A stretch of 64,000 nt of DNA, from the NCBI RefSeq assembly GCF_963664915.1, contig NZ_OY761810.1, forward strand, positions 1,316,661 to 1,380,660, given 5' to 3'. The position numbers and the translations under genes were made by a program. Source of the stretch: an uncultured Caproiciproducens sp. (lineage in GTDB: Bacteria > Bacillota > Clostridia > Oscillospirales > Acutalibacteraceae). Numbering within the stretch: the stretch's first letter is position 1; each line of letters opens with the position of its first letter. Below the pieces are notes generated by a model that was not told the origin of the DNA, did not search any database, and saw only the letters and a program-made list of their open reading frames with translations. Below, one piece after another: positions 11,493 through 50,169 of the stretch.

Positions 11493-12176
11493 TCAGTCCA
11501 GACGCTTAGTCAGTTCCTTGGGAATTGTTGCGGTATCTTGTCCGTAGAATTTAAACACGTCAACTGCCTGCTGAATTTGTGCCTCGCTCATCTGCTTGGT
11601 CGGACCGACAGCAGCGGCGGCAAGGTAGCACTTTGCTGCCTCTTCTGTATAAACAGCGGCGTAGAGCGCTTGCTTGAGGTCCTTACCAATGGTCATGACG
11701 CCGTGGTGCGCAAGGATAACAGCAAGGCTGTCACCGATGTATTTCACGGTGTCAATCCCCATGTCGACCGAGCCTGCCGCGGAGAACGGGGTAATCGGCA
11801 CATTGCCGCCCGCTGCATTTGCCAATGTAGTCAAATTGACACGGAAGGTGTCTTTTTCAATCAGACCAACTGCGGTGGCGTAAGGCTGGTGCGTGTGGAT
11901 GACTGCATTGATATCGGGGCGGTGCTTGAAAATATACAGTACTGCTTCGGTGTCGGAAGAGGGTTTTCTGGTTCCCTCAATGATTTTGCCGTCAATGTCC
12001 ATAACCAGTACATCATCGGGTTCCATATCTTCATAAATCATACCTGAGGGCGTGACAAGAATTTCGCCAGTAGGCATTCTCATGGAAAGATTGCCGCCTG
12101 AAAGTGCGATCAGCTGATAACGGTCGAGTTTAACACCGGCTATAATGATTTGCTTTTTTTCTTCTAAAAACATCAT
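11493..12176 (-). CDS. class II aldolase (L-fuculose/L-ribulose-phosphate type)
   Basis: The 227-residue enzyme belongs to the zinc-dependent class II aldolase/AraD family. SGGNLSMR and VTPSGM form the phosphate and substrate pocket, and the zinc histidines are in HTHQPY and AHHGVM. It would cleave a keto- or aldose phosphate to DHAP or a related triose plus an aldehyde. It is the last gene of a minus-strand operon with the two transketolase subunits and belongs to the SorC/PTS regulon. AGGAGGT precedes the ATG. A second aldolase of the same family is encoded at 20587. The substrate is not readable from sequence. Confidence 0.85.
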   Translation of the reverse strand: MMFLEEKKQIIIAGVKLDRYQLIALSGGNLSMRMPTGEILVTPSGMIYEDMEPDDVLVMDIDGKIIEGTRKPSSDTEAVLYIFKHRPDINAVIHTHQPYATAVGLIEKDTFRVNLTTLANAAGGNVPITPFSAAGSVDMGIDTVKYIGDSLAVILAHHGVMTIGKDLKQALYAAVYTEEAAKCYLAAAAVGPTKQMSEAQIQQAVDVFKFYGQDTATIPKELTKRLD

Positions 12177-12256
12177 ACTTTACCTCCTGAGTAATTTTGA
12201 AATGGGATCTTTGTTTATGCAGCCCCGAAACTGTGCTTTAGGAGAGACAGTCACGA

Positions 12257-13243
12257 TTAGACCTCAAGAAAATCAACAAAACGAACTTCTTCCAAATCGT
12301 GCTCTTTGATGTCCAGATTCTTACCGGTCAGGTTTTCGACGGCAGATACCAGATGCATTGCGTCAATGCCGTACTTCTTCATGAGGTACATCTTGGACGC
12401 GCCGTGGGGATAGCTGGTCAGGCCGATTTTGATCAGCCGTTTGTTTAGGCCGTTCTCGGCAATCACATCCGCGACCGCAGAACCCAAACCGCCGATGCTC
12501 ATGTGATTCTCGATTGTGACAACGCCGTACTTGGACTTCGAAATTGCCTCGACGATAGTCGGATCGGTGAAAGGCTTAAGTGTGGAAACATGCATGTGCT
12601 GGATGGACATGCCCTTATCCTTCAGAACTGCAGTCGCACGCATGGCTTCCTCGGTGCAGATGGAGGAGGACAGCACGACGACATCGGTACCTTCGGACAG
12701 AACACGCGCACGGTTGAACTGCATAGGCTCATTTGCAGGAAACAGGCGCGGAACATCTTTGCGGAGCATACGGATGTAAACGGGGCCGTTATAGTTGTAC
12801 GCCAAGTCCAAAACGCCCTCAATTTCCGTAGCGTCACCAATATCAAAGATTGCAATGTTCGGAACGGAGCGCAAAACCGCAACGTCGTTGACCGACTGAT
12901 GGGTAACACCGCCCGGGGTAGTGATGCCGGGAACGAAGCCGACAAATACGACCGGCAGATTTGGATAAGCAACGCTCATCTCAAGCTGGTCGAGAATACG
13001 GCGGTATAGGAAGACCGCAAAGGTGTGCAGGAAAGGGCGATAGCCCTCACGTGCCATACCTGCAGCCCAAGAACACATATTCTGCTCTGCAATACCCATG
13101 GTCAGGTAACGGTCAGGATAGGTTGTTCTAAATTTTTTGACTTCGCAGGAGGAACCGAGGTCGGCGGACATAACGTAAACTTCGGGATGCTCTGCCGCGA
13201 AGCGAATCATATTTTTCTCGTGGGTATTTACTTCGATTTTCAT
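12257..13243 (-). CDS. transketolase, carboxyl-terminal subunit
   Basis: The 328-residue protein contains the pyrimidine-binding half of transketolase (SADLGSS; catalytic Glu in MGIAEQNM) and the carboxyl-terminal transketolase domain (SYPHGASKMYLMKKYGID). Together with the subunit encoded just upstream it would form one thiamine-diphosphate active site that moves two-carbon units between sugar phosphates. Split transketolases dedicated to a single pathway, such as AptA/AptB of apulose-4-phosphate breakdown, have this size. The two subunit genes are 16 bp apart and must be co-expressed. Confidence 0.88.
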   Translation of the reverse strand: MKIEVNTHEKNMIRFAAEHPEVYVMSADLGSSCEVKKFRTTYPDRYLTMGIAEQNMCSWAAGMAREGYRPFLHTFAVFLYRRILDQLEMSVAYPNLPVVFVGFVPGITTPGGVTHQSVNDVAVLRSVPNIAIFDIGDATEIEGVLDLAYNYNGPVYIRMLRKDVPRLFPANEPMQFNRARVLSEGTDVVVLSSSICTEEAMRATAVLKDKGMSIQHMHVSTLKPFTDPTIVEAISKSKYGVVTIENHMSIGGLGSAVADVIAENGLNKRLIKIGLTSYPHGASKMYLMKKYGIDAMHLVSAVENLTGKNLDIKEHDLEEVRFVDFLEV

Positions 13244-13259
13244 TCAGAATCCCTCTTTC

Positions 13260-14165
13260 TTACATTTTATCGTAAACTGCCTGAAACGCTTCGCGCTCGC
13301 TTGCGCCAATACGGACAAAGTGGAGCATTGGCCAACGTTTTTCAAGCGGTGGAACACCGGTGGTACCGCGAGTCCTGCAAATCACAACAAGGGGCTTTCC
13401 CTCATGCTGGGTTTTTGCCGCCGAAACCAGTTCCTCGATTGAGTGACCGTTGCAGGTGACGCATTTTGCGCCGAAAGCTTCAAAACGCTCACTCATCGGT
13501 TCTTCAGTCATCTGATCTTCAACCGCACCCTCGACCTGCTGGCCGTTCGCATCAATAACGATAATGAAATTATCAAGCTTGTAGTAGCCCGCAGCCTGTA
13601 TACATTCCCAAAGCTGACCTTCCTGCAGCTCGCCGTCGCCGAGCATGCAGTACACCTTACCGGTTTCGCCCTTGATCTTGCGGGAATGCGCGGTACCTGC
13701 GGCGATTGAAATGGTCTGCCCCAGGGAGCCTGCGGTATTTTCAAATCCGGGAGAATGTTCAGCCCCGATCATCTCCATATTCCAGCCATCAACATTAAAC
13801 TTATCCATACAATCTGGACTGATACGGCCGGTAGCCGCGAGAGCACAGTAGATAACAGATGCATAGTGACAGCAGGAAACAAAGAAACGATCCTTGTCGG
13901 GCGCGGGCGCACCGTTATAGGAAGAACCTCTCTGATAGTCCATGTTGTCGGGACCGGGAACTCCCGGGAACGGGATCGGTTCCCAGTTGCCAACAGAGGG
14001 ACCGAGATTCATGATTTTTGTGTACAGGCTGGCGACAATTTCGGCAGAGGAACAGGCCTGCCCCAGATAACACCCCCCTGTCTTCAGCGCAATCCCAAGA
14101 ATTTGTTTGCGGATGCTGGTAGCGACGCTCTGAATTTCTTCGGTGGAATAATTTTTTTCCGGCAT
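13260..14165 (-). CDS. transketolase, amino-terminal subunit
   Basis: This is the thiamine-diphosphate-binding half of a split transketolase, ~301 residues. The GDGELQEGQLWE...LDNFIIVIDANG stretch is the GDG-NDN cofactor motif, and AEHSPGF carries a substrate-site His. ATG at 14165 is preferred, with AAAGGAG upstream; an in-frame ATG 15 codons earlier overlaps that ribosome site. It is the first gene of the minus-strand operon and diverges from the zinc dehydrogenase gene across an operator region. The protein is inactive without the downstream subunit. Confidence 0.88.
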   Translation of the reverse strand: MPEKNYSTEEIQSVATSIRKQILGIALKTGGCYLGQACSSAEIVASLYTKIMNLGPSVGNWEPIPFPGVPGPDNMDYQRGSSYNGAPAPDKDRFFVSCCHYASVIYCALAATGRISPDCMDKFNVDGWNMEMIGAEHSPGFENTAGSLGQTISIAAGTAHSRKIKGETGKVYCMLGDGELQEGQLWECIQAAGYYKLDNFIIVIDANGQQVEGAVEDQMTEEPMSERFEAFGAKCVTCNGHSIEELVSAAKTQHEGKPLVVICRTRGTTGVPPLEKRWPMLHFVRIGASEREAFQAVYDKM

Positions 14166-14324
14166 AATAAATAATGCTCCTTTCATAATGGTTGTCTGCG
14201 AGGCAGACAAGCTTACGCAATAATGGAGGTAAAGCCAATCTCGATATGAATATTATTTCACAATATTGAACATATGTCAACAAAGGAAGACAGTCGAATT
14301 CGTACAAATCGAGAAAAGATTATC

Positions 14325-14339
14325 TGTACAAATTGTACA
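14325..14339. promoter_or_regulatory. palindromic operator candidate in the divergent control region
   Basis: TGTACAA-A-TTGTACA is a perfect 15-bp palindrome. Related half-sites (CGTACAAATCG, CTATACAAA) lie on either side at about 14301-14355. It sits between the transketolase and dehydrogenase genes, 27 bp before the -35 of the plus-strand promoter. It is a likely site for the SorC regulator or another repressor. Confidence 0.6.
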
Positions 14340-14365
14340 AATCGGCAATCTATACAAAAAAACAA

Positions 14366-14394
14366 TTGACTTGTTCGTTATTTTGCAATACAAT
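14366..14394 (+). promoter_or_regulatory. promoter for the zinc dehydrogenase gene
   Basis: TTGACT (14366-14371) and TACAAT (14389-14394) have a 17-bp spacer, with the ATG about 85 bp downstream. The 5' leader in between holds GAACATAATTT and GAACAAGAGTTC, which resemble the GTTCA/TGAAC half-sites in front of sorC. Confidence 0.7.
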
Positions 14395-14478
14395 GATGCC
14401 AAAGAAGCGGGGCAATCAAAAAGTTCCGTGAACATAATTTCTTAATTACGAACAAGAGTTCATTGGAGGCATCGATTT

Positions 14479-15525
14479 ATGAAAGCAGTTTTAAAAACCA
14501 AGAATGGTTATGACAACATGGAGTATACCGATATTCCCGAACCAAAGGCAGAACGCGATCTCGTCAAGATCAAGGTGGCTTATTCAGGCATTTGCGGAAC
14601 TGACCTGCATGCATTTAAAGGAACGTATCCGAGCACAAAGCCGCCTGTCGTACTGGGACATGAGTTTTCAGGCATCGTCACCGAAATCGGCCCCGATGTC
14701 ACTAAGGTGAAGGTTGGCGACCGGGTCACGAGCGAGACTACGTTTACGACCTGCGGTACCTGCCCTTACTGCAACAGCCGTGATTACAATCTTTGCGGCA
14801 GCCGTCAGGGTCTTGGCACTCAGATCAACGGCTCGATGGCAGAATATCTTGTCAGCCGGGAGGAAAGCGTTCACATCCTGCCTGCAAAAGTAAGTTTGCT
14901 CAGTGCAGCACTGATAGAGCCGCTCGCCTGCGGCGTACATGCAAGTATTGAAAAAGGCGATGTGCAGCCGGGGGAAATCATTGTTGTATTCGGCGCCGGT
15001 GCGATCGGTTTGCTGCTCGCACAAGTTGCAAAGGCCCGCGGTGCAACGGTCATCCTTGCGGGGCTGACCAATGACGCGGAGCGTTTTAACATTGCACATA
15101 CTTTCGGAGTTGACCGAACGGTCGACCAAATGACCGAGAATCTGAAGGCAATTGTCATGGAGATGACCAATGGTATCGGCGCACACAAATGTTTTGAGTG
15201 TTCGGGCGCTGTTCCGGCTGCAAATACAGCGTTAGACATTGTCCGCCGCAAAGGCAAGGTTATTCAGATGGGTGTATTCCCGCAGGCAAAAGAGAGTATC
15301 GCAACCGACCTGATTCTGCACAAAGAAATAGAATACATCGGTTCGCGCAGCCAGAAGCCCAGTTCCTGGAAAAAGTCGATTGAACTGCTTGCAGCGGGCA
15401 CGGTCGTTCCCGAGAAGATTGTCACAACGATTGTTTCTTTGGAAGACTGGCGCGAAGGTTTTGAGAAAATGATTCGCGGCGAGGGTGCAAAGGGTGTCAT
15501 CTGCTGTGACGATACGCTGCAATAA
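14479..15525 (+). CDS. zinc-dependent polyol-phosphate/alcohol dehydrogenase
   Basis: The 348-residue medium-chain dehydrogenase has catalytic zinc ligands in GICGTD (Cys38) and GHEF. Structural-zinc cysteines are in TCGTCPYC and the following NLC, and the Rossmann motif reads VFGAGAIGLLLAQ. It resembles sorbitol and galactitol-1-phosphate dehydrogenases. In this PTS regulon it most plausibly oxidises the phosphorylated polyol made by the EII complex to a ketose phosphate using NAD. It has its own promoter and a leader with possible SorC sites. The exact substrate is unknown. Confidence 0.85.
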   Translation: MKAVLKTKNGYDNMEYTDIPEPKAERDLVKIKVAYSGICGTDLHAFKGTYPSTKPPVVLGHEFSGIVTEIGPDVTKVKVGDRVTSETTFTTCGTCPYCNSRDYNLCGSRQGLGTQINGSMAEYLVSREESVHILPAKVSLLSAALIEPLACGVHASIEKGDVQPGEIIVVFGAGAIGLLLAQVAKARGATVILAGLTNDAERFNIAHTFGVDRTVDQMTENLKAIVMEMTNGIGAHKCFECSGAVPAANTALDIVRRKGKVIQMGVFPQAKESIATDLILHKEIEYIGSRSQKPSSWKKSIELLAAGTVVPEKIVTTIVSLEDWREGFEKMIRGEGAKGVICCDDTLQ

Positions 15526-15535
15526 TCAAGGCAAC

Positions 15536-15561
15536 AAAAAAGCGGAGGCTTTCGCCTCCGC
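15536..15561 (-). terminator. terminator between sorC and the dehydrogenase gene
   Basis: GCGGAGGC/GCCTCCGC form an 8-bp stem with a 4-nt loop. The six T follow on the minus strand, so it mainly ends sorC; the hairpin also lies 10-35 bp after the stop of the convergent dehydrogenase gene. Confidence 0.85.
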
Positions 15562-15581
15562 AATCATTCAGAAATAAGCTG

Positions 15582-16562
15582 TTAAGGATTTTCCGATGTT
15601 AAATAATCGGCTTTTGCTCCGGCAAGTTCAAGCATCCGGTACGCAAGCGTCTCATCGATGACAAGCATATTTAGGTATTTGCCGTGTATCGCTCCAAGTA
15701 CAGCCTCCGCTTTCATGGCGGATGCGCTAATGCCAATCGACCATTGCGCATGCTGCATTGCACTGAGCGGTGCAGTGATCGTGTAGCGGCCGGGAATATT
15801 CAACTCGTTGCCATCCTTGTCGAACATGCGGGCAAGCAGATGACCAACCCCGCCGCGGCTCAAAAGTTCCATGCGCTGTTTATCATTATAATAACCCGCC
15901 TTTTCAAGGGTGGATTCGGGATCCTGCAGCGACCCGATGCCGGTCACGATCACGTCGGTAGTCAGCGCCCTCTTAAGGGTTGTCTCAATCTGAGGTTCGG
16001 CAATCAAATAAGAATAGACCAGTTCGCTGTCTACATAGACGGGTGCATAAATATTCGAGTAGGTGCCGTCAAGCTTTTTAGATATCTCGAGCGCCAGTTC
16101 CAGCCCGTCGAAATGCGGATTGCCCGTACCAAGGCAGCCGGCCATTTGCACCACGTTCAGATTGTAATAGTTTGTAGGCTTCATTGCATCGCATAGATAC
16201 TGTAACGGCTTCCCCCATGAAATACCAAGCGTCTGGTTGTTTTCGAGAACGGTGTTTAGAAAATTGGCGGCAGCTTCAGCAGAACGGTGCAGTGCCTTAT
16301 CATAATCGTATGTGCCTGCAATGACAATTGCATCACGCAGCCCAAAGGTCGTTCGAATCGCATAGGACAGTTGCGGATTCTTTAGAATCGGGCTGTGCAC
16401 GACGATTTCAACCACACCGGTCTCCTTGGCTTCATTGAGCAAACGAGAAATCGTTGGGCGGGACATATTCGTCATTTTACTGATTCTCTGTTGGCTCAGT
16501 CCTTGCTGATAGTACAGTTCAGCAATGTATACCAGAAGATCAATGCGTGCATCCATGAGCAT
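15582..16562 (-). CDS. SorC/DeoR-type sugar-binding transcriptional regulator
   Basis: The ~326-residue protein has a sigma-4-like helix-turn-helix (about residues 18-48; YQQGLSQQRISKMTNMSR) and a large SorC sugar-phosphate-binding domain (about residues 60-320; ISWGKPLQ and VVQMAGCLG). Regulators of this family sense phosphorylated sugars. It lies between the divergent dehydrogenase/transketolase genes and the PTS operon and probably controls all three transcripts. ATG at 16562 is preferred, with AGAAGGGG upstream. A perfect-arm palindrome lies 18 bp upstream of the start, consistent with autoregulation. Confidence 0.9.
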   Translation of the reverse strand: MLMDARIDLLVYIAELYYQQGLSQQRISKMTNMSRPTISRLLNEAKETGVVEIVVHSPILKNPQLSYAIRTTFGLRDAIVIAGTYDYDKALHRSAEAAANFLNTVLENNQTLGISWGKPLQYLCDAMKPTNYYNLNVVQMAGCLGTGNPHFDGLELALEISKKLDGTYSNIYAPVYVDSELVYSYLIAEPQIETTLKRALTTDVIVTGIGSLQDPESTLEKAGYYNDKQRMELLSRGGVGHLLARMFDKDGNELNIPGRYTITAPLSAMQHAQWSIGISASAMKAEAVLGAIHGKYLNMLVIDETLAYRMLELAGAKADYLTSENP

Positions 16563-16579
16563 GATACCCCTTCTCTTTA

Positions 16580-16595
16580 TTGAACAGATGTTCAA
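16580..16595. promoter_or_regulatory. SorC operator candidate between sorC and the PTS operon
   Basis: TTGAACAGATGTTCAA has 6-bp perfect arms around 4 nt. Further TGAAC and GTTCA half-sites occur at 16599-16635. The position, just upstream of sorC and ~190 bp before the HPr gene, fits control of both transcripts. Confidence 0.55.
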
Positions 16596-16785
16596 GTCGT
16601 GAACATAATTATATCACGTTTGGTGCATGTGTTCAAATAAAACTTTGAATAATAGTCAGATTGCGCAAAACCTCTTATTTACTAAAAACAGTGATTAATA
16701 AATTCTTATAAATGGTATGATATTTACAGATACTGCTAATAGCATCGATAATAAAAAAATTAATGAATCATAGGAGAGAATCAAT

Positions 16786-17046
16786 ATGTTTACTCGTCAA
16801 TTTATCATCAAAAACAGAACCGGATTACACGCACGTCCTGCGGGGCAGCTCGCGACACTCTGCAAAAGCATCCCCGACGATATCCGTATCATTGCCGGCA
16901 AGGATTCTATCAATCCCAAAGGCATCCTCGCCATTCTGACCGCAGGCTTAAAGATGGGCACAGCCATTACAATTGAGGTCGAAGGCGCCACCGAACAGGA
17001 ATCCGGCAAAAAGATCATCACATTTCTGGACGGACTGACTGAGTAA
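16786..17046 (+). CDS. HPr-like phosphocarrier without the regulatory serine
   Basis: The 86-residue protein is full-length HPr. RTGLHARPAG places the catalytic histidine at residue 15. It would carry phosphate from EI to EIIA. Position 46, the serine that HPr kinase phosphorylates in Firmicutes, is glycine (NPKGILAIL), so this HPr should escape HPr-kinase control and could not serve as a CcpA co-repressor. It is the first gene of a PTS operon that also encodes its own EI, suggesting a dedicated carrier. GGAGAG precedes the ATG. Confidence 0.92.
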   Translation: MFTRQFIIKNRTGLHARPAGQLATLCKSIPDDIRIIAGKDSINPKGILAILTAGLKMGTAITIEVEGATEQESGKKIITFLDGLTE

Positions 17047-17064
17047 TCGGAAGGAGAAAGAACA

Positions 17065-17523
17065 ATGGAATTAGCAACCTATCGTGAGTTAATACTATGT
17101 GATGTTGACGCAAAGGACTGTGCAGATGCAATCCGTCAGGTCGGTGCAAAATTTTTGGCAGCTGGATTTGTAAAGGACACTTATATTGATGCTGTTGTGG
17201 CCCGCGAGGACATATTCCCCACCGGTCTGCAGCTTGAAAATATTGCAGTCGCAATGCCGCATACCGATTCCCAGCACGTTAACCGCCCCGGTGTCTGTAT
17301 CGCACAGCTGAAGCATCCTGTTACGTTTGGGCACATGGGCGACCCCGACCTTAAAGTCGAGGCTGAACTGCTCTTTATGATGGCGATTAAGGATCCGGAC
17401 GAGCAGGTGGAGACGTTAAAAAAAGTACTGAGCGTTTTCCAACATCCGGACATCGTTGCTGCCTTTCGCGATGCAAAGAATGAAGAGGAGCTCTTTGTAT
17501 CAGCGCAGAAATATATTGGATAA
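17065..17523 (+). CDS. PTS EIIA, fructose/galactitol type
   Basis: The 152-residue protein is a PTS EIIA type 2 domain. VAMPHTD contains the phosphorylated His66, followed by the LLFMMAIKDPDEQVETLKKV strand-helix typical of GatA/FruA-type domains. It receives phosphate from HPr and passes it to the EIIB encoded next. The genes for HPr, EIIA, EIIB and EIIC follow one another at short spacing on the plus strand. Length matches free-standing GatA-like proteins. Confidence 0.9.
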   Translation: MELATYRELILCDVDAKDCADAIRQVGAKFLAAGFVKDTYIDAVVAREDIFPTGLQLENIAVAMPHTDSQHVNRPGVCIAQLKHPVTFGHMGDPDLKVEAELLFMMAIKDPDEQVETLKKVLSVFQHPDIVAAFRDAKNEEELFVSAQKYIG

Positions 17524-17561
17524 GGTCTCAAGATCAAAATTTAAAATGGGAGGAATTCATC

Positions 17562-17861
17562 ATGAAATCATGCAAGATTCTGTGCATCTGCGGTTCAGGC
17601 ACGGTCAGTTCCGCAATGGTCGCGGGCAAAATTAAGGAACAGCTCAAGGAAAAAGGCTGGGATGTTCACGCAGTTGAAGCCAGTCCGAGCAGCGCGGGTT
17701 CTGTAATCCCCGGCGGCAACTTTGATTTAATGGCATGTGTCAGTCCCGTATACGAAGATTTCGGCATTCCAAAGGTTAAAGCTGTCGGTATGCTGACTGG
17801 CATGTCCGAGGGCAAGGTTCTGGCAGATATACTTGCAATTCTGGAAGAAAAGTACAAGTAA
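17562..17861 (+). CDS. PTS EIIB, galactitol type
   Basis: The 99-residue protein has the phospho-cysteine loop CGSGTVSSAM with Cys10 as the likely phosphorylation site. Two further cysteines precede it (KSCKILCIC). It passes phosphate from EIIA to the sugar or polyol bound by EIIC. GGGAGGAATTC precedes the ATG. Size and order match GatB in GatA-GatB-GatC systems. Confidence 0.9.
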   Translation: MKSCKILCICGSGTVSSAMVAGKIKEQLKEKGWDVHAVEASPSSAGSVIPGGNFDLMACVSPVYEDFGIPKVKAVGMLTGMSEGKVLADILAILEEKYK

Positions 17862-17956
17862 AACAAGGCTTCTATTGTCGTCAGATACCGGATCGTTTTG
17901 AGCGATCCGCATATAAAAAACAGAAACATAGAAATGAAAAGGGGGAACTAACGATT

Positions 17957-19360
17957 ATGGCAAGTTTCTTTCAAGGTTTGAGTGACATCATTTCCACGCT
18001 CGGCGCGGCGGTATTTGTACCGATCATGCTGTTCATTATCGCGAAGTTCATGGGCATCTCCAGTAAGAAGGCGTTCAACTCCGCGCTGCTTTGCGCAGTT
18101 GGTTTAACCGGCTTTAATCTCGTTATCAACAGTTACAGTGGTATTATTGCTCCTGTGGTCAATAAGATGGTCACCAACGCAGGTGTCAACCTTCCTGTTC
18201 TGGACACCGGCTGGCAGTCAACTTCTGTCATCGCGTATTCCACACAGGTAGGCCTGATCTTCATCGGCGTTGCAATCGTGGTACAGATCGTCCTCTTCTT
18301 TGCGAAGTGGACAGACGTATTCATGGCTTCCGATCTGTGGAACAACTATTCCTTCATGGTGTGGGGATCCATGTTGTTCGCACTGACCAAGAACATGTGG
18401 CTGGCATTGTCATTAATGGTTGTGCAGCTGTTGTACATCCTGCTGTTTTCTGAAATGTGTGCAAAGAGATGGTCTACATATTATGAGTATGAAAATTGCT
18501 GTATGACCGCTCCTCATCACCTTGAATCCCTGCCGTTCGCATTGCTGATGAATGTTCTCCTCGGCAAGCTAGGCTTTGACAAAATCAAGCTCAACGCACA
18601 GACTCTGCAAAAGAAACTCGGCATCCTCGGCGAGCCTATGTTTATCGGTCTTGTTATCGGTGCTCTGATTGGCGTTATCGGCAACTTCAACGCACTGAAC
18701 ACACTGGCTGCATGGGGCACCATTTCCTCCGCAGCGGTTTCCACCGCAGCGATCATGGCAGTGTTTCCAAAGGTTGCGGGGATCTTCGCGAATGCGTTCA
18801 CAACGCTGACCGATGCCTATAAAACCAAGGCAACCAAATCAGGAGAAGGTCGTGAGTGGTATCTGTCTGTAAACGATGCCTGCGGTTACGGCGAACCAAA
18901 CACACTGGTTACCGGTATCATCCTGATTCCGATTATGCTTGGCCTTGCATTCATTCTGCCGGGCAACACCATTTTACCGATGGCTGACCTGTGCGCACTG
19001 CCTTACATGGTTGAAATTTTTGTATGTGTTTCCAATGGAAACATTGCAAAGAGTGTCGTTAGCGGTGCAATTTGGTTCTCACTCGGCATGATTATCTGTT
19101 CTCAGCTGGCGCCGACCTTTACACAGGTCGCAGTCGACGCAGGTTTCAAAATGTCCCAGTCGGGTGTCTATATCACCAGTTTCGGTATTATGTGCCATCC
19201 GCTGATTGCCGGGCTGTTCTATGCCTTCTGGACTCAGAATCCAATCATTATCGGCGCCGTCGTCATTTTGTACTTTGTTCTTTACTTTGTTTTCAAGAAG
19301 AATCGTACTCAGTTTGTTAACTGGCTTGAAAAGAGTGCTGCAGAGTATCAGGCAGGTTAA
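17957..19360 (+). CDS. PTS EIIC, galactitol type
   Basis: This 467-residue integral membrane permease has about ten to twelve hydrophobic segments from residue ~15 (AAVFVPIMLFIIAKFMG) to ~450. It matches the GatC/SgcC family, including the NDACGYGEPNTLVTGIIL region expected near the substrate site. It imports the polyol or sugar, which is phosphorylated by EIIB. GGGGGAAC precedes the ATG. The GatC family covers galactitol, pentitols and related compounds, so the substrate cannot be assigned by eye. Confidence 0.88.
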   Translation: MASFFQGLSDIISTLGAAVFVPIMLFIIAKFMGISSKKAFNSALLCAVGLTGFNLVINSYSGIIAPVVNKMVTNAGVNLPVLDTGWQSTSVIAYSTQVGLIFIGVAIVVQIVLFFAKWTDVFMASDLWNNYSFMVWGSMLFALTKNMWLALSLMVVQLLYILLFSEMCAKRWSTYYEYENCCMTAPHHLESLPFALLMNVLLGKLGFDKIKLNAQTLQKKLGILGEPMFIGLVIGALIGVIGNFNALNTLAAWGTISSAAVSTAAIMAVFPKVAGIFANAFTTLTDAYKTKATKSGEGREWYLSVNDACGYGEPNTLVTGIILIPIMLGLAFILPGNTILPMADLCALPYMVEIFVCVSNGNIAKSVVSGAIWFSLGMIICSQLAPTFTQVAVDAGFKMSQSGVYITSFGIMCHPLIAGLFYAFWTQNPIIIGAVVILYFVLYFVFKKNRTQFVNWLEKSAAEYQAG

Positions 19361-19479
19361 ATTCACAGCAACTTAATAGTCTGACGACAAATGAATATAA
19401 ATTCGGCCATTGCCGCTGCAGTCGGCAGTGGCTGAAGACTATTCAGCACCATTTTGAAAAGGAAGTGTGCGGGAATTCT

Positions 19480-20568
19480 ATGAAAAACATTACAAGAAAT
19501 CCACAGAAGATTGTAGTCATCGGCGATGTCTTTGTGTCGCCTGACACCATGGAGGAAGCGCTCCGCGGCAGTAAGATTGTCTGCGGCGAGATCACGAAAC
19601 TGTACTGGGGCAATGCCGACAAACAGGACTTTACCGCACGTCAGCTGAAGGTCGAACGGAACGGACCCGACGCGGTTGCTTGTGCGGACGGACTTGCGCA
19701 GGCGATTGAGGATGCAGAGATTGTACTGACTCATTTTAATCCTATCCCGCGCCATATGATTGAGAAGGCGAAAAATTTAAAGCTTATTTTAACCTGCCGC
19801 GGTGGTATGGAGCATATTGACGTCGCAGCAGCAAGTGAACGGAACATTCCGGTCATAAACGTTATCCGCAATGCGGAACCGGTTGCAGATTTTGCACTGG
19901 GACTCATGCTTGCCTTGACACGCAACATTGCTCTGTCCTATCAGCGTATGAAACAGGGCGAATGGATGAAGACTTTTTATAACTCCGAATTTTTAATGAC
20001 ACTCGGTAGCCATACGGTTGGACTTGCCGGACTGGGCAACGTGGGCATCGCGCTGGCGCGCCGCCTGAAAGCACTGGGAGTGCCCATGATCGCTTATGAC
20101 GCCTACACCTCTAAGGAACGCCTCAGTAAGGCGGGACTGAGCGACATTCGCATGACTTCTTCGCTTGAGGAACTGTTTGAGCAGGCGGATATCGTATCCC
20201 TGCACCTCCGGCTGACTCCTGAAACTGAGAAAATAATTGACAGGCGGTACTTCTCATTAATGAAAAAGACCGCTTACTTTATTAATACAGCTCGCGGCGG
20301 TCTGATTAATCAGACCGATCTTGTGAGCGCGCTTCAGAGCGGCGCAATCGCGGGCGCGGCACTCGACGTCTACGATAGTGAGCCGTTGGCGGCGGACAAT
20401 CCGCTGCTCTCCATGGAACAGGTCGTGCTGACTCCGCACATCGCGGGCACAACGGTGGACGCCATCCCAAAAGCGCCATTCATGCTGCTGCAAGAGGTTG
20501 ACCGTTGGCTGACGCAAGATGTCACCGACCGTATCGTCAATCTGAAGGATATTCAAATAAGTATTTAA
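19480..20568 (+). CDS. D-isomer-specific 2-hydroxyacid dehydrogenase
   Basis: The ~362-residue enzyme has the NAD-binding motif GLAGLGNVGIALARR (about residues 181-195), the catalytic Arg region NTARGG, the Glu region in DVYDSEP and the catalytic His in LTPHIAGTT. The family includes phosphoglycerate and glyoxylate reductases. In this operon it would reduce or oxidise an acid made from the imported compound. I prefer ATG at 19480; a GTG 15 nt earlier lies directly on the AAGGAA ribosome site. It sits between the EIIC and second aldolase genes. Confidence 0.85.
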   Translation: MKNITRNPQKIVVIGDVFVSPDTMEEALRGSKIVCGEITKLYWGNADKQDFTARQLKVERNGPDAVACADGLAQAIEDAEIVLTHFNPIPRHMIEKAKNLKLILTCRGGMEHIDVAAASERNIPVINVIRNAEPVADFALGLMLALTRNIALSYQRMKQGEWMKTFYNSEFLMTLGSHTVGLAGLGNVGIALARRLKALGVPMIAYDAYTSKERLSKAGLSDIRMTSSLEELFEQADIVSLHLRLTPETEKIIDRRYFSLMKKTAYFINTARGGLINQTDLVSALQSGAIAGAALDVYDSEPLAADNPLLSMEQVVLTPHIAGTTVDAIPKAPFMLLQEVDRWLTQDVTDRIVNLKDIQISI

Positions 20569-20586
20569 TAGAAGGAGTACACTGCA

Positions 20587-21228
20587 ATGATTTTAAAAGA
20601 AGAACGTGAACTTGTTGTTGAATATGGCAAAAAGCTGATTGAAACCGGATTGACGGTCGGTACGTTTGGCAATATTAGTGTTTATAACCCTGAGAAGAAC
20701 CTCATGGCAATCAGTCCGAGCGGCATGGACTACTTTAAGACAAAGCCCGAGGATGTAGTCGTTCTTACTCCGGAAGGGGAAAAAGTCGACGGCAATGCAA
20801 AACCGTCGAGTGAGTTTGACCTGCACCGCATCTTTTATTTAAAGCGCCCGGGCATCAAAGCAGTCGTTCACGCGCATTCGCCGTTTGCAACGACGCTTGC
20901 CTGCATGCAGTGGAGTATTCCGCCGCTGCACTATATCGTCGGCTACTCAGGCAGCGAGGTACCCTGCATCCCGTATGTCCAGTTTGGTACGTACGAGTTG
21001 GCACAAACGGCGTTAGCGGGCATGGGCGATAACCATGCCGTCCTGCTCGGTAACCATGGATTGCTTGCCGCCGGCAGCGAGCTGTCCTTCACATTGGATA
21101 TTGCGCAGCAGGTCGAGTTTGCGGCGGAGTTGTACTACCGCTGCAAGGCAGTCGGCGAACCGAAGCTGCTGACAGACGAACAGATGTCAGTTGTCGTCGA
21201 AGCATTTGGAAGTTATCGGCAGAAATAA
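20587..21228 (+). CDS. class II aldolase (L-fuculose-phosphate type), second copy
   Basis: The 213-residue protein has TFGNISVY, AISPSGM and the zinc histidines in VHAHSPF and GNHGLL, the standard AraD/FucA layout. It differs clearly from the aldolase at 11493, so the two are paralogues with possibly different stereochemical preference rather than duplicates. It follows the hydroxyacid dehydrogenase gene by 18 bp in the PTS operon. GAAGGAG precedes the ATG. Confidence 0.87.
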   Translation: MILKEERELVVEYGKKLIETGLTVGTFGNISVYNPEKNLMAISPSGMDYFKTKPEDVVVLTPEGEKVDGNAKPSSEFDLHRIFYLKRPGIKAVVHAHSPFATTLACMQWSIPPLHYIVGYSGSEVPCIPYVQFGTYELAQTALAGMGDNHAVLLGNHGLLAAGSELSFTLDIAQQVEFAAELYYRCKAVGEPKLLTDEQMSVVVEAFGSYRQK

Positions 21229-21251
21229 CGAAACGCGAAAGAGGAGACGAT

Positions 21252-21647
21252 ATGGAAAAGTGTGTTTATTGCGGAAAAAATCTTCCCGAAAAGCCACTCA
21301 AAGCGAAGGTGCATACCCGTTCCTTCGATGTTTGCTGCGAGGATTGCAAGATTGCGGCTGAGAAATATGTCGGGCGTGACAAGCGTTTTAAGACAGCGTT
21401 GTACCTTGTGATTTTTCTGGGCGGCATCGGCTTCATTGTCAGCGCGATGTTCTGCAGCGGCAGGTACGCCATGCTCGCCGCCTATCTGGGGCAGACTGTC
21501 GCGGGACTTGCGCTTTTTTTCCTGCCTTATCCGGTCACTTCGTTTGAAACGTTCCACAATATGTCGATTAAAGGCGTAACCATGCTGTGCCGATTAATCG
21601 GCGCAGGGCTCGCGGTTTGGGGAATTGTTCTACTCATATTGCTGTAA
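21252..21647 (+). CDS. small membrane protein with amino-terminal zinc-ribbon-like motif
   Basis: I do not recognise the family. The first ~40 residues hold CVYC near the start and VCCEDC near residue 28, a spacing fit for a metal site. Three to four hydrophobic segments follow between residues ~48 and 131 (YLVIFLGGIGFIVSAMF; GLALFFLPYPV; AGLAVWGIVLLILL). It lies between the aldolase and EI genes in the same operon, 24 and 47 bp from its neighbours, and has its own GAGGAG ribosome site. It could be an accessory to the transporter or a membrane-linked sensor; neither can be shown here. Confidence 0.7.
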   Translation: MEKCVYCGKNLPEKPLKAKVHTRSFDVCCEDCKIAAEKYVGRDKRFKTALYLVIFLGGIGFIVSAMFCSGRYAMLAAYLGQTVAGLALFFLPYPVTSFETFHNMSIKGVTMLCRLIGAGLAVWGIVLLILL

Positions 21648-21693
21648 AATCTTTTTAATATACCATATTACAACTGTATAGGGAGAATTAGCA

Positions 21694-23406
21694 ATGTTAA
21701 AACTCAACGCACTCGGTGTATCAGAAGGACTTGCGAAAGCAAAAGCGATGGTCCTTCGCCAACCCGATCTTACCGTATGCAAGCAAACTATCAGCAATAT
21801 CACCGCGGAACAGGCACGCGTTACAGTGGCAGTTGACCGTGCAATGGAGCAGCTTGCGGCACTGCGCAAAGAGACGGCGGCAAAAATCGGTGAAGAAAAC
21901 GCTGAGATCTTCGATGCGCATCTGATGATACTGGAGGATCTCGATTTTGTCAGGGGCATGACAAACCTGATCGCGGACAAGCAGGTTGGCGCGGAATATG
22001 CGTGTGTTTTAAACCGCGAAACTTTTGAGACAAAGTTCCTCGCAATCGATGATGAATATATGCAGGCGCGCGCAGCGGATATAGGAGATATTTCCATGCG
22101 TATCCTTAGAATTCTCAAAGGGATTGAGGACAATCCATTCGACGCGATTACAGACCCGTGCATTATTGTGGCAAACGATCTGACCCCGTCTGAAACGGCG
22201 AAGATCGGTTCTAAGCCTGTGGTCGGCTTTGTCACTGAGATCGGCGGACGCACCAGCCACTCTGCAATCATGGCGCGCTCAATGGGGATTCCCGCGGTTG
22301 AGGGACTCGGCGAGCAGGCAGGAAGGATTATAGATGGCGAGATGCTGCAGATTGATGGCAGTATGGGTGAGGTGATTATCAATCCCGACGCCGCGGCCGA
22401 AGCGGAATTCGACCACAAAAAGAAGCTCTTTGACGAACAGCGCCATAAGCTGGCAATCTATCGTGACAAGGAAGGTACGACTTCAGACGGTCACCGAATC
22501 ATCATTGAGGGCAACATCGGCACGCCCAAGGATGCGGTACGCATTGCGGAAATGGGCGGTGATGGAATCGGTCTGTTTCGCAGTGAATTTCTGTTTATGG
22601 ATCGCAACGATTTGCCGACGGAGGAAGAACAGTTCGCTGCGTATAAAAAAGCAGCGGAGATTATGTCGGGCAAACCGGTTATCATCCGCACGCTTGATAT
22701 TGGCGGTGACAAGAACGTTCCCGCTCTGAAACTTGATCCCGAACAGAATCCATTTCTCGGCTACCGGGCAATCCGTATCTGTCTTGACCATGAAGAACTG
22801 TTTTTGCCACAACTGCGGGCACTGCTGCGTGCATCGGCGTTCGGCGACATCCGTATCATGTTCCCGATGATCTCCTCGGTCGAGGAGGTGCGTCAATCAA
22901 AGGCAGTGCTTAATACCGCTCGCAAACAGCTTGATGCGGAAAACATCGCATATAATAAGAACATCAAGGTCGGCATCATGATTGAGATTCCCGTTGCAGC
23001 AGTCTGCGCGGATATTCTGGCGAAGGAAGTCGACTTCTTCTCAATCGGTACGAACGACCTAATTCAGTATTCCTGCGCTGTTGACCGCATCAACGGCAAG
23101 GTTGCGTCATTGTACCATCCGCTCCATCCAGGCGTGCTGCGTCTCATCAAAATGACCGCAGACGCGGCGAATGAAAACGGAATCGAGTGCGGTGTATGCG
23201 GTGAAATGGCAGGCTCTTCCGGCATGGCATCCGTATTATGCGGGCTGGGAGTAACGAACCTATCCATGTCCGCTTCATCAATTCTCGCGGCGAAATCCGA
23301 TCTGGCACACCACACTTTCGTCGAATGTAAAATGCTCGCAGACAGTCTGCTCGGCTCGATCTGCGCGACCCATGGAGAGAAGATGTTCGCCGAAAAGCAG
23401 GAATGA
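21694..23406 (+). CDS. ptsI: PTS enzyme I (phosphoenolpyruvate-protein phosphotransferase)
   Basis: The 570-residue protein is a complete EI. The HPr-binding helical domain comes first; GGRTSHSAIMAR then places the phospho-histidine at residue 189; the PEP-binding barrel follows with FRSEFLFMDR, SIGTNDLIQY and the active-site cysteine in GVCGEMAG. It takes phosphate from PEP and passes it to HPr. It is the last gene of this sugar operon instead of lying beside a general ptsH, so it probably serves the HPr encoded at 16786. GGGAG precedes the ATG. Whether a general ptsI exists elsewhere is unknown. Confidence 0.93.
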   Translation: MLKLNALGVSEGLAKAKAMVLRQPDLTVCKQTISNITAEQARVTVAVDRAMEQLAALRKETAAKIGEENAEIFDAHLMILEDLDFVRGMTNLIADKQVGAEYACVLNRETFETKFLAIDDEYMQARAADIGDISMRILRILKGIEDNPFDAITDPCIIVANDLTPSETAKIGSKPVVGFVTEIGGRTSHSAIMARSMGIPAVEGLGEQAGRIIDGEMLQIDGSMGEVIINPDAAAEAEFDHKKKLFDEQRHKLAIYRDKEGTTSDGHRIIIEGNIGTPKDAVRIAEMGGDGIGLFRSEFLFMDRNDLPTEEEQFAAYKKAAEIMSGKPVIIRTLDIGGDKNVPALKLDPEQNPFLGYRAIRICLDHEELFLPQLRALLRASAFGDIRIMFPMISSVEEVRQSKAVLNTARKQLDAENIAYNKNIKVGIMIEIPVAAVCADILAKEVDFFSIGTNDLIQYSCAVDRINGKVASLYHPLHPGVLRLIKMTADAANENGIECGVCGEMAGSSGMASVLCGLGVTNLSMSASSILAAKSDLAHHTFVECKMLADSLLGSICATHGEKMFAEKQE

Positions 23407-23484: not shown

Positions 23485-24039
23485 TTATTTTGCGTATTTA
23501 CTCAGTGCCTTTTTGAAATCCCCTTTCACCAGCACGGCGACCTGCTCGGCGATTTCCTCCGGGTTTTCTTCCATGCCCGTACGCACCCAATCAAGACCCA
23601 TGGCAACAATGGCGAGGCTATAAAAATGCGCAATAAATTCTTTGTTTTTATTTTCGACATTCATGCCCTGCGCCTGTTCCTCTACAACGGGATAAATCAC
23701 ATGAAACAGTACGTTATACATAAAAGTTTCCAAATATTCGCGGCGGTTTGAGCGATAGGTGTTGACAACAAGGGCCTTGTTGTCGCGCAACCGCATGAGT
23801 ACGTGGCAATAACCCTGCTGCCATGTGTCAATATCCCGGTTGTTGGCCAGTGCCGTGGATGCTTCCTCAAGGAATATCCACTCAAGAAGATCATAAATAT
23901 CTTTAAAATGATAATAAAATGCCTGACGGGATAGGCTGCAGTCTTCAACGATGTCCTTTACGGTGATATGGTCAAGCGTTTTTTTCCCAAGCATTTTTTT
24001 GAGCGATTCCGCAAAGATTTCCTTGGCATTTTTCAGCAT
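23485..24039 (-). CDS. TetR-family regulator (DhaS-like)
   Basis: The ~184-residue protein has the TetR helix-turn-helix (residues ~12-48; ITVKDIVEDCSLSRQAFYYH) and a DhaS-type ligand domain. ATG at 24039 is chosen, with GAAGGAGAG upstream. It diverges from the oleate hydratase gene, and the 240-bp space contains TTGACAATG and TTGACAATC repeats that could be its sites. It probably controls the hydratase in response to fatty acids; this is inference from gene order. Confidence 0.85.
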   Translation of the reverse strand: MLKNAKEIFAESLKKMLGKKTLDHITVKDIVEDCSLSRQAFYYHFKDIYDLLEWIFLEEASTALANNRDIDTWQQGYCHVLMRLRDNKALVVNTYRSNRREYLETFMYNVLFHVIYPVVEEQAQGMNVENKNKEFIAHFYSLAIVAMGLDWVRTGMEENPEEIAEQVAVLVKGDFKKALSKYAK

Positions 24040-24277
24040 AAGATTCTCTCCTTCACTTTGAATCACTATATGAATTAATATTATTGTATCACCATTGCGT
24101 TTCCTTGACAATGCATGAAAAAAGTGCGTCATGTCTTTTGACAATCAAGGGTAAATGTCAATCTCTTTTACAGTTCAGCCCAAGTGTCAATTTTCATTTG
24201 AATATCTCTGATTTATACTATGTCTGTAATGAAGCCCACATGCTTCATCACAAAACATATAAAAGGAGATATCATAT

Positions 24278-26083
24278 ATGAATATTTATTCGACAATGTA
24301 TCGGCCAAGAAAGCCGGAGAATATCGAAAAGAGAAAAGCCTACATAGTAGGAAGCGGTTTGGCAGGATTGGCAACAGCGGCGTTTCTTGTGGATGACGCA
24401 GGCATGCCCGGTGAAAACATCACTATTTTGGAAAAGTACTCCGATGTAGGTGGCAGTATGGACGGAGTCCGCAATGAGTTTGGCTATCTGTGCCGCGGTG
24501 AGCGCGAGATGGAACCGTACATGGAATGCCTTTGGTATCTGTACAGCAAGATTCCGTCTCTTGAAAACGAAGGGCGCACGGTGCTTGACGATATTGTAGA
24601 ATTTAACCGTGACGAACCGATCCATTCCGAATGCAGAGCAATCCTCAATCGGGGCGAAATATACAACAAGATTCACGACTACAAGTTTTCTCCCAAAGAT
24701 ATGGCAGATATGCAGCGTTTTCTACATCTTCCGGAGTCCGCGCTTGAAGACAAGCCTATCTCGGATTTCTTCGGAGAGTCATTCTTTAAAAGCAGCATGT
24801 GGATTTGTTTCCACAGCTGTCTTGCTTTTAAAACATACCACAGCGCATTGGAGTGCAAACGCTATTTCCAACGTTTTGCGCTGGAGGACCGCCACGAATA
24901 CCTGGAAGGGATCATTCACACTAAGTACGGCGAGTATGACTCTATGATTCGTCCCCTTATGACGTGGCTCTGCAACAAGGGAGTTAAGACGGCCTATGCC
25001 TGTTCCGTGTATGACATCGAAATGGATAAGGCCTGCAATACGGCGAAAGCCATCAAGTTATATCAGAATGGCAAGGATACTGCCATTCAGATGGACGACA
25101 AAGACATGATATTTGTCACAAACGGCTCCATGACAACCAACAGCGCCTTTGGCGACAACAAAACCGTAGCGCCGACCAACCGCGACACCGCCGACCTTGG
25201 CGCTTTTACTCTCTGGCAGAACCTTGCGAAGAAAAATGAAAAGTTCGGTCATCCGGAAAAGTTTATAGGCCAAATCGAGAAGACGAAGTGGATCTCATTC
25301 ATGCCGACAATCAAGGGTTATCCCGAGCTTGTCCGTCGGATAGAGAAAATGTCCGGAAGCCCTGCCGGAACAGGCGGTGCAATTACCATCATGGACTCCA
25401 GCTGGGATATATCCTTTGAGCTGCACCACAATCCATTCTTTATAGATCAGGCGGCAGACGAGCAGGTGATGTGGGGATATGGCCTGTATGGTGAAAATGT
25501 TGGTGACTATATCAAAAAGCCAATGTGCGAATGCACCGGGGAAGAGATCATGACCGAGCTGCTTTATCATTTGAACATGCTTGACATCAAGGACGAGGTA
25601 CTGTCTCACGCCTATATCTCCACTTGCATGATGCCCTATATCACCAGCCAGTTTATGCCGCGCAAGGTCAGCGACCGCCCGAAAAATGTGCCGGACGGCT
25701 GCACAAATATCAGCTTTCTCGGCCAGTATGTCGAAGTTCCGGACGATGTGGTATTCACGGTGGAAATGTCCGTGCGTACCGGCATGGAAGGTGTTTATAA
25801 GCTTACTGGTCTGGAAAAGGATGTACTGGAGGTCTATCCCTCACGCTATGACATCCGCTATACCATTGAACGAATGAAGAAATTCGCTGGAATTCCAATC
25901 TATAACAAGATCACCATCGACGATCTGCCGGATATCAACATGATGGAAGTCGGTAAATTAAAGCAGACTGTTGTTGATCTTGTCAACTCCATTCCACCGT
26001 ATTATCACATGTACCTCGGACGCGACCAGACGGTGTCTTTGAAAGAGTCTGTGCTTCATCCACAGGCCCCGCAGAGCAAATAA
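24278..26083 (+). CDS. ohyA: oleate hydratase (FAD-dependent fatty acid hydratase)
   Basis: The 601-residue flavoprotein matches oleate hydratases along its length. A GSGLAGLATAAF nucleotide-binding motif lies at residues ~26-37, followed by the family's FNRDEPIH, SALECKRYF and PSRYDIRYTI regions. The enzyme adds water to the cis-9 double bond of unsaturated fatty acids, a detoxification step in gut bacteria. The catalytic loop reads RGEREM at residues 73-78, where characterised enzymes have RGGREM; the catalytic Glu77 is retained. AAGGAG precedes the ATG. A TetR gene diverges from it. Confidence 0.88.
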   Translation: MNIYSTMYRPRKPENIEKRKAYIVGSGLAGLATAAFLVDDAGMPGENITILEKYSDVGGSMDGVRNEFGYLCRGEREMEPYMECLWYLYSKIPSLENEGRTVLDDIVEFNRDEPIHSECRAILNRGEIYNKIHDYKFSPKDMADMQRFLHLPESALEDKPISDFFGESFFKSSMWICFHSCLAFKTYHSALECKRYFQRFALEDRHEYLEGIIHTKYGEYDSMIRPLMTWLCNKGVKTAYACSVYDIEMDKACNTAKAIKLYQNGKDTAIQMDDKDMIFVTNGSMTTNSAFGDNKTVAPTNRDTADLGAFTLWQNLAKKNEKFGHPEKFIGQIEKTKWISFMPTIKGYPELVRRIEKMSGSPAGTGGAITIMDSSWDISFELHHNPFFIDQAADEQVMWGYGLYGENVGDYIKKPMCECTGEEIMTELLYHLNMLDIKDEVLSHAYISTCMMPYITSQFMPRKVSDRPKNVPDGCTNISFLGQYVEVPDDVVFTVEMSVRTGMEGVYKLTGLEKDVLEVYPSRYDIRYTIERMKKFAGIPIYNKITIDDLPDINMMEVGKLKQTVVDLVNSIPPYYHMYLGRDQTVSLKESVLHPQAPQSK

Positions 26084-43986: not shown

Positions 43987-45557
<1,571 letters not shown>

Positions 45558-45627
45558 TGGAGAACTGACCAGCTGAAAATGCCGGTCTAACATCCAAGGT
45601 CGGAGTTACGGAAGAAATAATTCGAAT

Positions 45628-45646
45628 CGTTGTTTAATTTTGAAGG
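45628..45646 (+). other. 3' arm of the 16S rRNA processing stem
   Basis: This sequence pairs with 43793-43811 and together with it would bring the 16S ends close for RNase III cleavage. The remainder of 45557-45831 is spacer with no gene. Confidence 0.75.
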
Positions 45647-45831
45647 CCCCGGACCGAGTCCGGTGTCATGCCGCGCACAGAGCGGATCTGAAAAGGTCGG
45701 CAAAGTGCACGCGTAACACCATAAACAGGTTAAGAGCTTTCTAAAAATAGTGGAATACGAGAGAAGAACAACTCAAATGAGTATCCGCAAGTAAATAGTT
45801 CATGATGCGTAAGCATTATGGATTCAAACAT

Positions 45832-45907
45832 GGGGGTTTAGCTCAGCTGGGAGAGCGCCTGCTTTGCAAGCAGGAGGTCAACGGTTCGATCCCGTTAATC
45901 TCCACCA
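45832..45907 (+). tRNA. tRNA-Ala (TGC)
   Basis: The anticodon stem CCTGC/GCAGG encloses TTTGCAA, giving TGC. The acceptor stem GGGGGTT pairs with AATCTCC using two G-U pairs, and the CCA end is encoded. It lies in the 16S-23S spacer. Confidence 0.96.
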
Positions 45908-46051
45908 GCGGACAGAGTCCGCGGTCAATTCACGGGTAAGATTGGATGGAAACATCAAATTGAAGCACGCGAAAACGACCGTTGATTAAGTTTGCGCCAA
46001 TGTGGCTATATGGGCACAAGGATAACCGGATAGCCTCTAGCCAGTGAATAT

Positions 46052-46128
<77 letters not shown>

Positions 46129-46389
46129 CGGACACAGTCCGTTTATGCCGCGCGAAAAGATTGATGAAACATTCAGTTTGACGCCCGCGTAACGGAGGAA
46201 TGTCATCAAAACAGGTGAGGCGGGACAGTCGAAAGACACTTCCGAAGAATCTGGAAATACATACGGTATGTTGGAATTGTTATAATAAAAGCATATTGTA
46301 TGTCAAATGACGCACAAAGGAAAAGTTCGCGTGCATTTAAGTTGCAGTAACATGCAGATTAATCCGTGACGAAGCCGACTGCGTCGGTG

Positions 46390-46410
46390 TACATTGAAAA
46401 CTGAATAAAG
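46390..46410 (+). other. 5' arm of the 23S rRNA processing stem
   Basis: This 21-nt stretch (TACATTGAAAACTGAATAAA plus G) pairs with 49380-49400 with 20 of 21 positions matched, flanking the 23S gene. The rest of 46129-46498 is spacer with no other feature. Confidence 0.75.
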
Positions 46411-46498
46411 AAGAAGCAGATAAAGCGAGAAAAATAACTTGTTATTTTAAATGATAAAATCTACAATTTTTAAAGAAGAACCAAGAAAGACACACATG

Positions 46499-49337
<2,839 letters not shown>

Positions 49338-49379
49338 AAGTTTTTCTTGGTACACCCTCTTTCCCGCTCTGTTTCTTTA

Positions 49380-50053: not shown

Positions 50054-50169
<116 letters not shown>

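Follow-up and report, generated by a model that had tools for sequence, protein, structure and literature searches.

HPr is usually a carrier shared by the transporters of a bacterial phosphotransferase system (PTS), and it serves as the model case of a small protein by which sugar import and global catabolite control are coupled. What does it mean, then, when a sugar operon carries an HPr and an enzyme I (EI) of its own? The question is raised by a gene cassette at positions 11493 to 23406 of a 64,000-nucleotide stretch of DNA (the window) from an uncultured Caproiciproducens sp. (contig NZ_OY761810.1, positions 1,316,661 to 1,380,660). A sequence-only reading had described this cassette as a complete private PTS relay, insulated from global PTS control; as a whole, that interpretation is partly supported. 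The reading that we favour, and hold to be rather probable, is that of an acquired sugar or polyol cassette with an HPr that HprK cannot switch off, residing in a PTS that has been rewired to about one HPr per transporter. The genome-wide pattern (about one HPr per transporter, with 13 of 18 carriers lacking the control serine) is wider and more surprising than the cassette itself.

The first part of the answer lies in the cassette HPr. It keeps the phosphocarrier residue His15, within the motif GLHARPA, and its residue 46 is Gly instead of Ser, as seen both in the column of the profile hidden Markov model and in an alignment with 1ptf. Because Ser46 has been replaced by Gly, the known HprK site is absent from this HPr, and the idea of insulation from global control gains support. 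The serine that marks an HprK-regulated HPr is likewise missing from the three orthologous cassettes (L183, L184 and L185), which all carry Asn46; residue 46 is Lys in cassette L186 and Ser in the sister cassettes L034 and L187. HprK itself is present as a single copy in the genome. In a quick, weakly resolved HPr tree (124 rows and 84 columns, with column 46 left out), the window HPr clusters with five Ser46, EI-linked HPrs at an approximate likelihood-ratio support (SH-aLRT) of 96. In bacilli, according to PMC9631020, HprK phosphorylates Ser46 of HPr and Crh, which leads to catabolite repression, and the S46A exchange in HPr of B. subtilis relieves the repression of some genes. Candidate CcpA sites were considered and rejected: the two matches with one mismatch both lie in coding sequence (19021 and 23171), and the window total of 5 versus 3.9 expected gives no signal. 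No exact match to what we take to be the consensus of the catabolite-responsive element (cre) occurs within the cassette.

The second part of the answer comes from the genome around it. This genome (3.126 Mb, one contig) contains 20 HPr-fold genes (PF00381), 18 with His15 and two without, as well as six intact EI genes and a broken one that is left in two pieces (PF05524). Five intact EIs, the broken EI and 19 HPr-fold genes are thus found outside the cassette, and the cassette copies are not the sole general ones, as had been asked earlier. Fifteen PTS permease loci were located: eight of PF02378, three each of PF03611 and PF03613, and a fructose-type EIIC (1713705) without a Pfam match, which scores slightly under the TIGR01427 cut-off; the families covered are those of these loci, and 15 may be too few. 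An HPr gene lies within 8 kb of 14 of the 15 (11 on the same strand), the exception being the locus at 1833478. Seen from the other side, an EII gene occurs at most 8 kb away from 15 of the 18 His15-bearing HPrs; if placement were random, the binomial probability of this would be about 1e-14, an approximate value from counts entered by hand. The remaining three are a uvrC-linked HPr (1912282), a lone one (1881295) and the partner of the EI at 1811734. The PTS of this genome is organised as about one HPr per transporter, and the dedicated HPr, previously regarded as exceptional, is what nearly every located transporter carries.

Residue 46 in the 18 His15-bearing HPrs is Lys in seven, Arg in five, Ser in five and Gly in one, the window HPr. 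Ser46 is therefore replaced in 13 of the 18, and all 12 Lys/Arg46 HPrs keep His15-Ala-Arg-Pro. The two His15-less HPr-fold proteins (L039 9862-10113, genome position 2786979; L040 9863-10312, genome position 1238301) keep the Ser46 region AKSIMG, and may be regarded as Crh-like in logic. Ten of the 11 genus genomes show weak partial matches of this His-less type, the sequences read being the two from this genome.

How far does the expansion reach? The 11 genus genomes have 20, 10, 12, 10, 24, 19, 5, 6, 3, 5 and 21 HPr matches, counts in which some genomes are incomplete and weak partial His-less-type matches are included. In the class sample, 333 of 391 genomes have an HPr match, and apart from the own genome none exceeds 7 (reached in G253), with up to 13 candidates scored per genome; G189, with 19 candidates, has at least 6. 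In a family sample of 120 genomes, none of the 118 that belong to other genera has more than 8 matches. In these samples the HPr expansion belongs to this genus, though not to every member of it. No report of such an expansion was found in the open-access literature searched.

Residue 46 also tracks the presence of an EI. The linkage sample consists of 79 His15-bearing HPrs in four genus genomes (own 18, G004 23, G005 18, G010 20), with each EI assigned to its nearest HPr. All 28 EI genes have an HPr within 5 kb, and 23 of them lie at most 130 bases from the HPr open frame. The 28 EI-linked HPrs comprise 21 with Ser, six with Lys/Arg and one with Gly at residue 46, and the 51 HPrs without EI comprise 46 with Lys/Arg and five with Ser. 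Four of these five EI-less Ser46 HPrs are uvrC neighbours (one per genome), and the fifth is L030 of the own genome, beside the broken EI. Fisher tests give p values of 0.00016 (G004), 0.0012 (G010), 0.022 (G005) and 0.117 (own genome), and are not independent, as orthologues are common to the genomes. The own-genome test is weak alone; its p value becomes 0.028 if the broken EI is counted as linked. A looser EI threshold gives the own-genome table [[3,3],[2,9]], owing to a weak match at L033 (E 1.5e-8) that was left out of the final count. At L030 (own 437790-438097), the EI is split into two frames and stands beside an intact Ser46 HPr, within a mannose-type PTS operon.

The Lys/Arg46 carriers have relatives beyond the genus. 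A profile of ten of them finds strong matches in several dozen other class genomes, with one or two each among the matches listed. Of the best 29 such loci read in other genomes, 16 have Arg at residue 46, 10 have Lys, two Ser and one Thr, and an EI is adjacent in 19 of the 29 within flanks of about 1.5 kb. The Lys/Arg46 HPr with EI therefore looks like an ordinary ptsHI pair of the class, apparently multiplied in this genus. In the HPr tree described above, 62 of 64 Lys/Arg46 rows fall into one group, together with two Ser and one Thr (SH-aLRT 95). The class sample of best-scoring HPrs has Ser46 in 40 of 41 rows and Arg in one, but it favours canonical HPr and is hardly informative about the Lys/Arg46 class. 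In five of its 41 rows (L113, L115, L125, L137 and L138), His15 is replaced by Arg, Gln, Asp, Glu or Ser and Ser46 is kept, again Crh-like.

The HPr-EI pair at own 1811468-1813362 (L035) has Lys46, a GTG start and no EII gene within 8 kb. Its EI falls into a clade of 12 rows (97/93 support) that is represented in each of the eight genus-mates fetched and also includes the own EI of L037, and the pair is a candidate for the general ptsHI. At L036 9705-10348 (own 1594349-1594950), two different HPr genes follow an EIIA_1 gene in tandem, and the same is seen in G010 (L045). The first HPr of L036 has Lys46 in CNAKKIMEVMG and lies outside the main Lys/Arg46 group.

Systems with a phosphocarrier tied to one transporter are known. 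FPr and the deoR-fruK-fruA-ptsH arrangement are cases of EI/HPr paralogues or fused multiphosphoryl transfer proteins tied to one PTS; E. coli K12 has five EI and six HPr when fused domains are counted, and multiple copies occur mostly in Proteobacteria in the survey concerned (all from PMC2405797). This genus differs from the FPr type in its single unfused HPr genes, its up to 24 matches per genome and its often replaced Ser46. A separation of the transport role of His15 from Ser46 signalling is also seen with Crh and HPr-S46A (ptsH1) of bacilli, as described in PMC9631020. Here, however, it is natural and genome-wide: the 13 of 18 carriers without Ser46 keep His15, and two HPr-fold proteins keep the Ser46 region without His15.

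The cassette can now be laid out in full. Its genes, called by Pfam and NCBIfam profile searches and open across the full length of their family models, are the following, together with one putative operator:

11493 to 12176, minus strand: class II aldolase/epimerase-like protein (Ald2); Aldolase_II PF00596, 158.5 bits, above cut-off; 71-76% identity to L183-L185
12257 to 13243, minus strand: transketolase C-terminal half; PF02779/PF02780; 89-91% identity to L183-L185
13260 to 14210, minus strand: transketolase N-terminal half; PF00456; probable start 14165
14479 to 15525, plus strand: zinc-dependent polyol/threonine-type dehydrogenase; PF08240/PF00107
15582 to 16595, minus strand: SorC-type regulator with sugar-binding domain; Sugar-bind PF04198, 175.2 bits; probable start 16562
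16589 to 16605, no strand: putative SorC operator TGTTCA-N5-TGAACA; inverted repeat with 11-base spacing in the SorC-HPr gap
16786 to 17046, plus strand: private HPr; PF00381
17065 to 17523, plus strand: EIIA, fructose/galactitol type; EIIA_2 PF00359, 108.8 bits
17562 to 17861, plus strand: EIIB with CGSGTVSS loop; PF02302, 33 bits, above cut-off
17957 to 19360, plus strand: EIIC, galactitol (GAT) family permease; EIIC-GAT PF03611, 217.4 bits versus a cut-off of 24.2
19465 to 20568, plus strand: 2-hydroxyacid dehydrogenase, PGDH-like; PF02826/PF00389
20587 to 21228, plus strand: L-fuculose-phosphate aldolase-like class II aldolase (FucA-like); NF005302, 285.9 bits, cut-off 264
21252 to 21647, plus strand: 131-aa small protein; TRASH domain at cut-off, Cys pairs and hydrophobic stretches; 60-63% identity to L183-L185
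21694 to 23406, plus strand: EI (PtsI); TIGR01417, 638.6 bits, cut-off 341.7

The gene content reported earlier is confirmed, at the positions given there. The plus-strand run from 16786 to 23406 contains HPr, EIIA, EIIB, the galactitol-type EIIC, the 2-hydroxyacid dehydrogenase, the FucA-like aldolase, the 131-aa gene and EI. Upstream of it lie the zinc dehydrogenase on the plus strand and SorC, both transketolase halves and Ald2 on the minus strand, so that the second class II aldolase and the split transketolase are also accounted for. The top PDB match of the transketolase N-terminal half is 6yak, the N-terminal component of a split-chain transketolase. The 131-aa gene had gone unnamed and is a member of the cassette, present in all three orthologous copies.

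These orthologues tell where the cassette may come from. Among 394 genomes of the order, nine (own genome included) contain a match to the window EIIC at E ≤1e-30; in three of them, all from one genus of another family, the identity is 81-86%. The order of Ald2, the C- and N-terminal transketolase halves, zinc dehydrogenase, SorC, HPr, EIIA, EIIB, EIIC, 2-hydroxyacid dehydrogenase, FucA-like aldolase and 131-aa gene is the same in L183-L185, with 60-91% identity for the twelve shared genes. Chance assembly is therefore excluded. The inverted repeat TGTTCA-N5-TGAACA is found in the SorC-HPr gap of all four cassettes. No window gene outside the twelve matches L183-L185, and the flanks differ. 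The GC content of the cassette is 49.3%, versus 44.3% in the remaining window without rRNA. Transfer of the cassette between families would be the simplest reading, in either direction.

The relay, by comparison, is not conserved as a complete unit. L183-L185 contain HPr, EIIA, EIIB and EIIC, and no EI was found in at least 6 kb past the 131-aa gene, nor in 2-3 kb past the opposite end. A dedicated EI-HPr pair would be expected to travel with its cassette, and in the flanks read at these three loci it does not; the claim of a complete private relay is not supported on this point.

The window EI itself is a genuine Enzyme I. It scores above the TIGR01417 cut-off, and its motifs GGRTSHSAIMARS and GVCGEMAG, which hold the active His and Cys, are kept and align with the solved EIs 2hro and 2kx9. 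Its closest relatives are EIs of four Butyricicoccus metagenome-assembled genomes (L017-L020), at 70-71% identity. In a tree built from 50 EIs (six of this genome, 38 of eight genus-mates and six named, with the single EIs of G006 and G007 left out), it joins the Butyricicoccus EIs at 100/100 support, apart from the five other own EIs and the 38 of the genus-mates. In the fetched flanks of L017-L020 (2 kb downstream of EI in L018), no cassette gene was found by tblastn and no HPr by profile. Since the cassette HPr and EI have different relatives, the EI is apparently an addition at the 3' end of the cassette. That it was the ancestral partner of its HPr is not supported, the HPr grouping with Ser46, EI-linked HPrs and the EI with Butyricicoccus. 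The EI has a GC content of 51.9%. Only 46 bases, with no listed terminator-like site, separate the 131-aa gene from the EI, so that co-transcription with the cassette is likely.

What the cassette transports can be narrowed down. Its EIIC belongs to the GAT permease family (PF03611), and every dedicated galactitol model stays under its cut-off: EIIC 247.5 versus 542.2, EIIB 21.3 versus 95, EIIA 91.9 versus 139 and the dehydrogenase (galactitol-1-P 5-dehydrogenase model) 146.5 versus 550. The galactitol pathway is thereby rejected, and the earlier statement that the enzyme set matches no named pathway exactly still holds. The cassette shares with the enteric galactitol (GAT) PTS its EIIA_2, IIB and EIIC-GAT parts and a zinc dehydrogenase nearby, but differs in its own HPr and EI, the FucA-like aldolase and the split transketolase. 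A split transketolase is also known from the D-apiose pathway, where the AptAB-like enzyme acts on apulose 4-phosphate. The aldolase scores above the cut-off of the L-fuculose-phosphate aldolase model NF005302 and below that of the ribulose-1-phosphate aldolase model (184.6 versus 300). This suggests that a ketose 1-phosphate might be cleaved to dihydroxyacetone phosphate and an aldehyde, a substrate path offered with low confidence; the 2-hydroxyacid dehydrogenase would also allow a sugar acid.

A sister cassette in the same genome (L034, own 1732961-1742983) resembles the window cassette in HPr (45% identity), EI (39%), a TM131-like protein (26%), IIA (32%), IIB (39%), IIC (50%), 2-hydroxyacid dehydrogenase (45%), FucA (46%) and zinc dehydrogenase (30%). 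It differs in its PRD-protein regulator, in an EI that is internal to the operon and falls into a different EI clade, and in an HPr with Ser46; the fetched stretch shows no split transketolase. The 2-hydroxyacid dehydrogenase adjoins EIIC in L034, L047, L077, L095, L186 and L187 too. In the L034-type sisters and L186 it follows EIIC, with a FucA-like aldolase adjacent where the stretch reaches far enough. L187 (G688, same order, different family) is an L034-type cassette with an internal EI and a Ser46 HPr.

Overall, phosphate would be passed from phosphoenolpyruvate via EI, His15 of HPr, EIIA and EIIB to the substrate on EIIC. The phosphorylated product would release SorC and induce both cassette halves. 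It may subsequently undergo oxidation by the dehydrogenase(s) and then cleavage by the FucA-like aldolase, conversion by the split transketolase, or both, yielding C2 and C3 units. Because residue 46 is Gly, HprK would not phosphorylate HPr at this residue, and the chain would neither be throttled by HPr(Ser-P) nor feed CcpA. The EI, as a later addition, would most likely supply the new host with an EI compatible with the carrier.

Several observations weigh against this picture of an acquired, HprK-independent cassette. According to PMC9631020, S46A by itself did not abolish catabolite repression in Parageobacillus. A fourth genome from the genus of the relatives (G823) has an EIIC match of just 27%. 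The absence of EI in L183-L185 applies to the linked stretches read, which limits what can be said about whether cassette and EI share an origin. In GC content, the window EI does not resemble locus L017 of Butyricicoccus, which is GC-poor at 33%, with 41% in its EI. The 2-hydroxyacid dehydrogenase and two aldolases fit no single textbook pathway known to us. Finally, HPr and EI can work across systems, as an EII of Dorea can be served by EI and HPr from E. coli (PMC6952197). Of the proposed insulation, the regulatory part is supported (Gly46 without the known HprK site, no exact cre), and the separation of phosphate flow is not.

The Dorea case also fits a different explanation, namely dosage instead of insulation: cassette EI and HPr would be interchangeable with the other copies, linkage would raise relay capacity on induction, and the HPr copies would be redundant. 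The intact His15-Ala-Arg-Pro of the 12 Lys/Arg46 HPrs agrees with this, as does the finding that G002, G003 and G008 each have one EI without an own HPr beside it. EI-HPr linkage is therefore not universal in the genus, and some EIs must use unlinked HPrs. Dosage, however, does not predict that Ser46 is replaced in 13 of 18 carriers, nor that the class of residue 46 goes with EI linkage, as it does in three of the four genomes when each is tested singly (the own genome being the exception), and we consider it possible but less likely. That the window EI is the general EI of the species, moved beside the cassette, is much less likely still. The Butyricicoccus relatives do look like housekeeping EIs without HPr, but L017 and L020 match the window in EI alone, and the EI of L035, with its genus-wide clade, is the better candidate. 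Decay or silence of the cassette after transfer is hardly credible: the HAD-family gene that lies between transketolase and aldolase in L183 and L185 (the two gene-listed loci) is missing from the window, yet the remaining genes are open and both motifs and operator are kept.

The favoured reading of an acquired cassette in a rewired PTS can be extended, tentatively and at less than even chances, to the genus. HPr would no longer be a shared currency there, and every transporter would have one to itself: the Lys/Arg46 carriers, out of reach of HprK, would all run on one general EI, the Ser46 carriers (and the window Gly46 HPr) would each be accompanied by an EI of their own, and catabolite signalling would be left to one uvrC-linked Ser46 HPr and the His-less Ser46 proteins. 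If true, transport and global sugar sensing, which are joined in one textbook HPr, would have been taken apart. With about one HPr per transporter, and with the control serine missing from most of these HPrs in the genomes read best, the need for coupling import to control becomes directly testable. The genus further opens the questions of how cross-talk is avoided among 18 related carriers and how portable a PTS cassette is between families.

Next to the cassette, the window contains a TetR/DhaS-like regulator (23485-24144) and an oleate hydratase gene (24278-26083). An rRNA operon (16S, 23S and 5S) lies at 43987-50250, with tRNAs in the 16S-23S spacer and around 5S.

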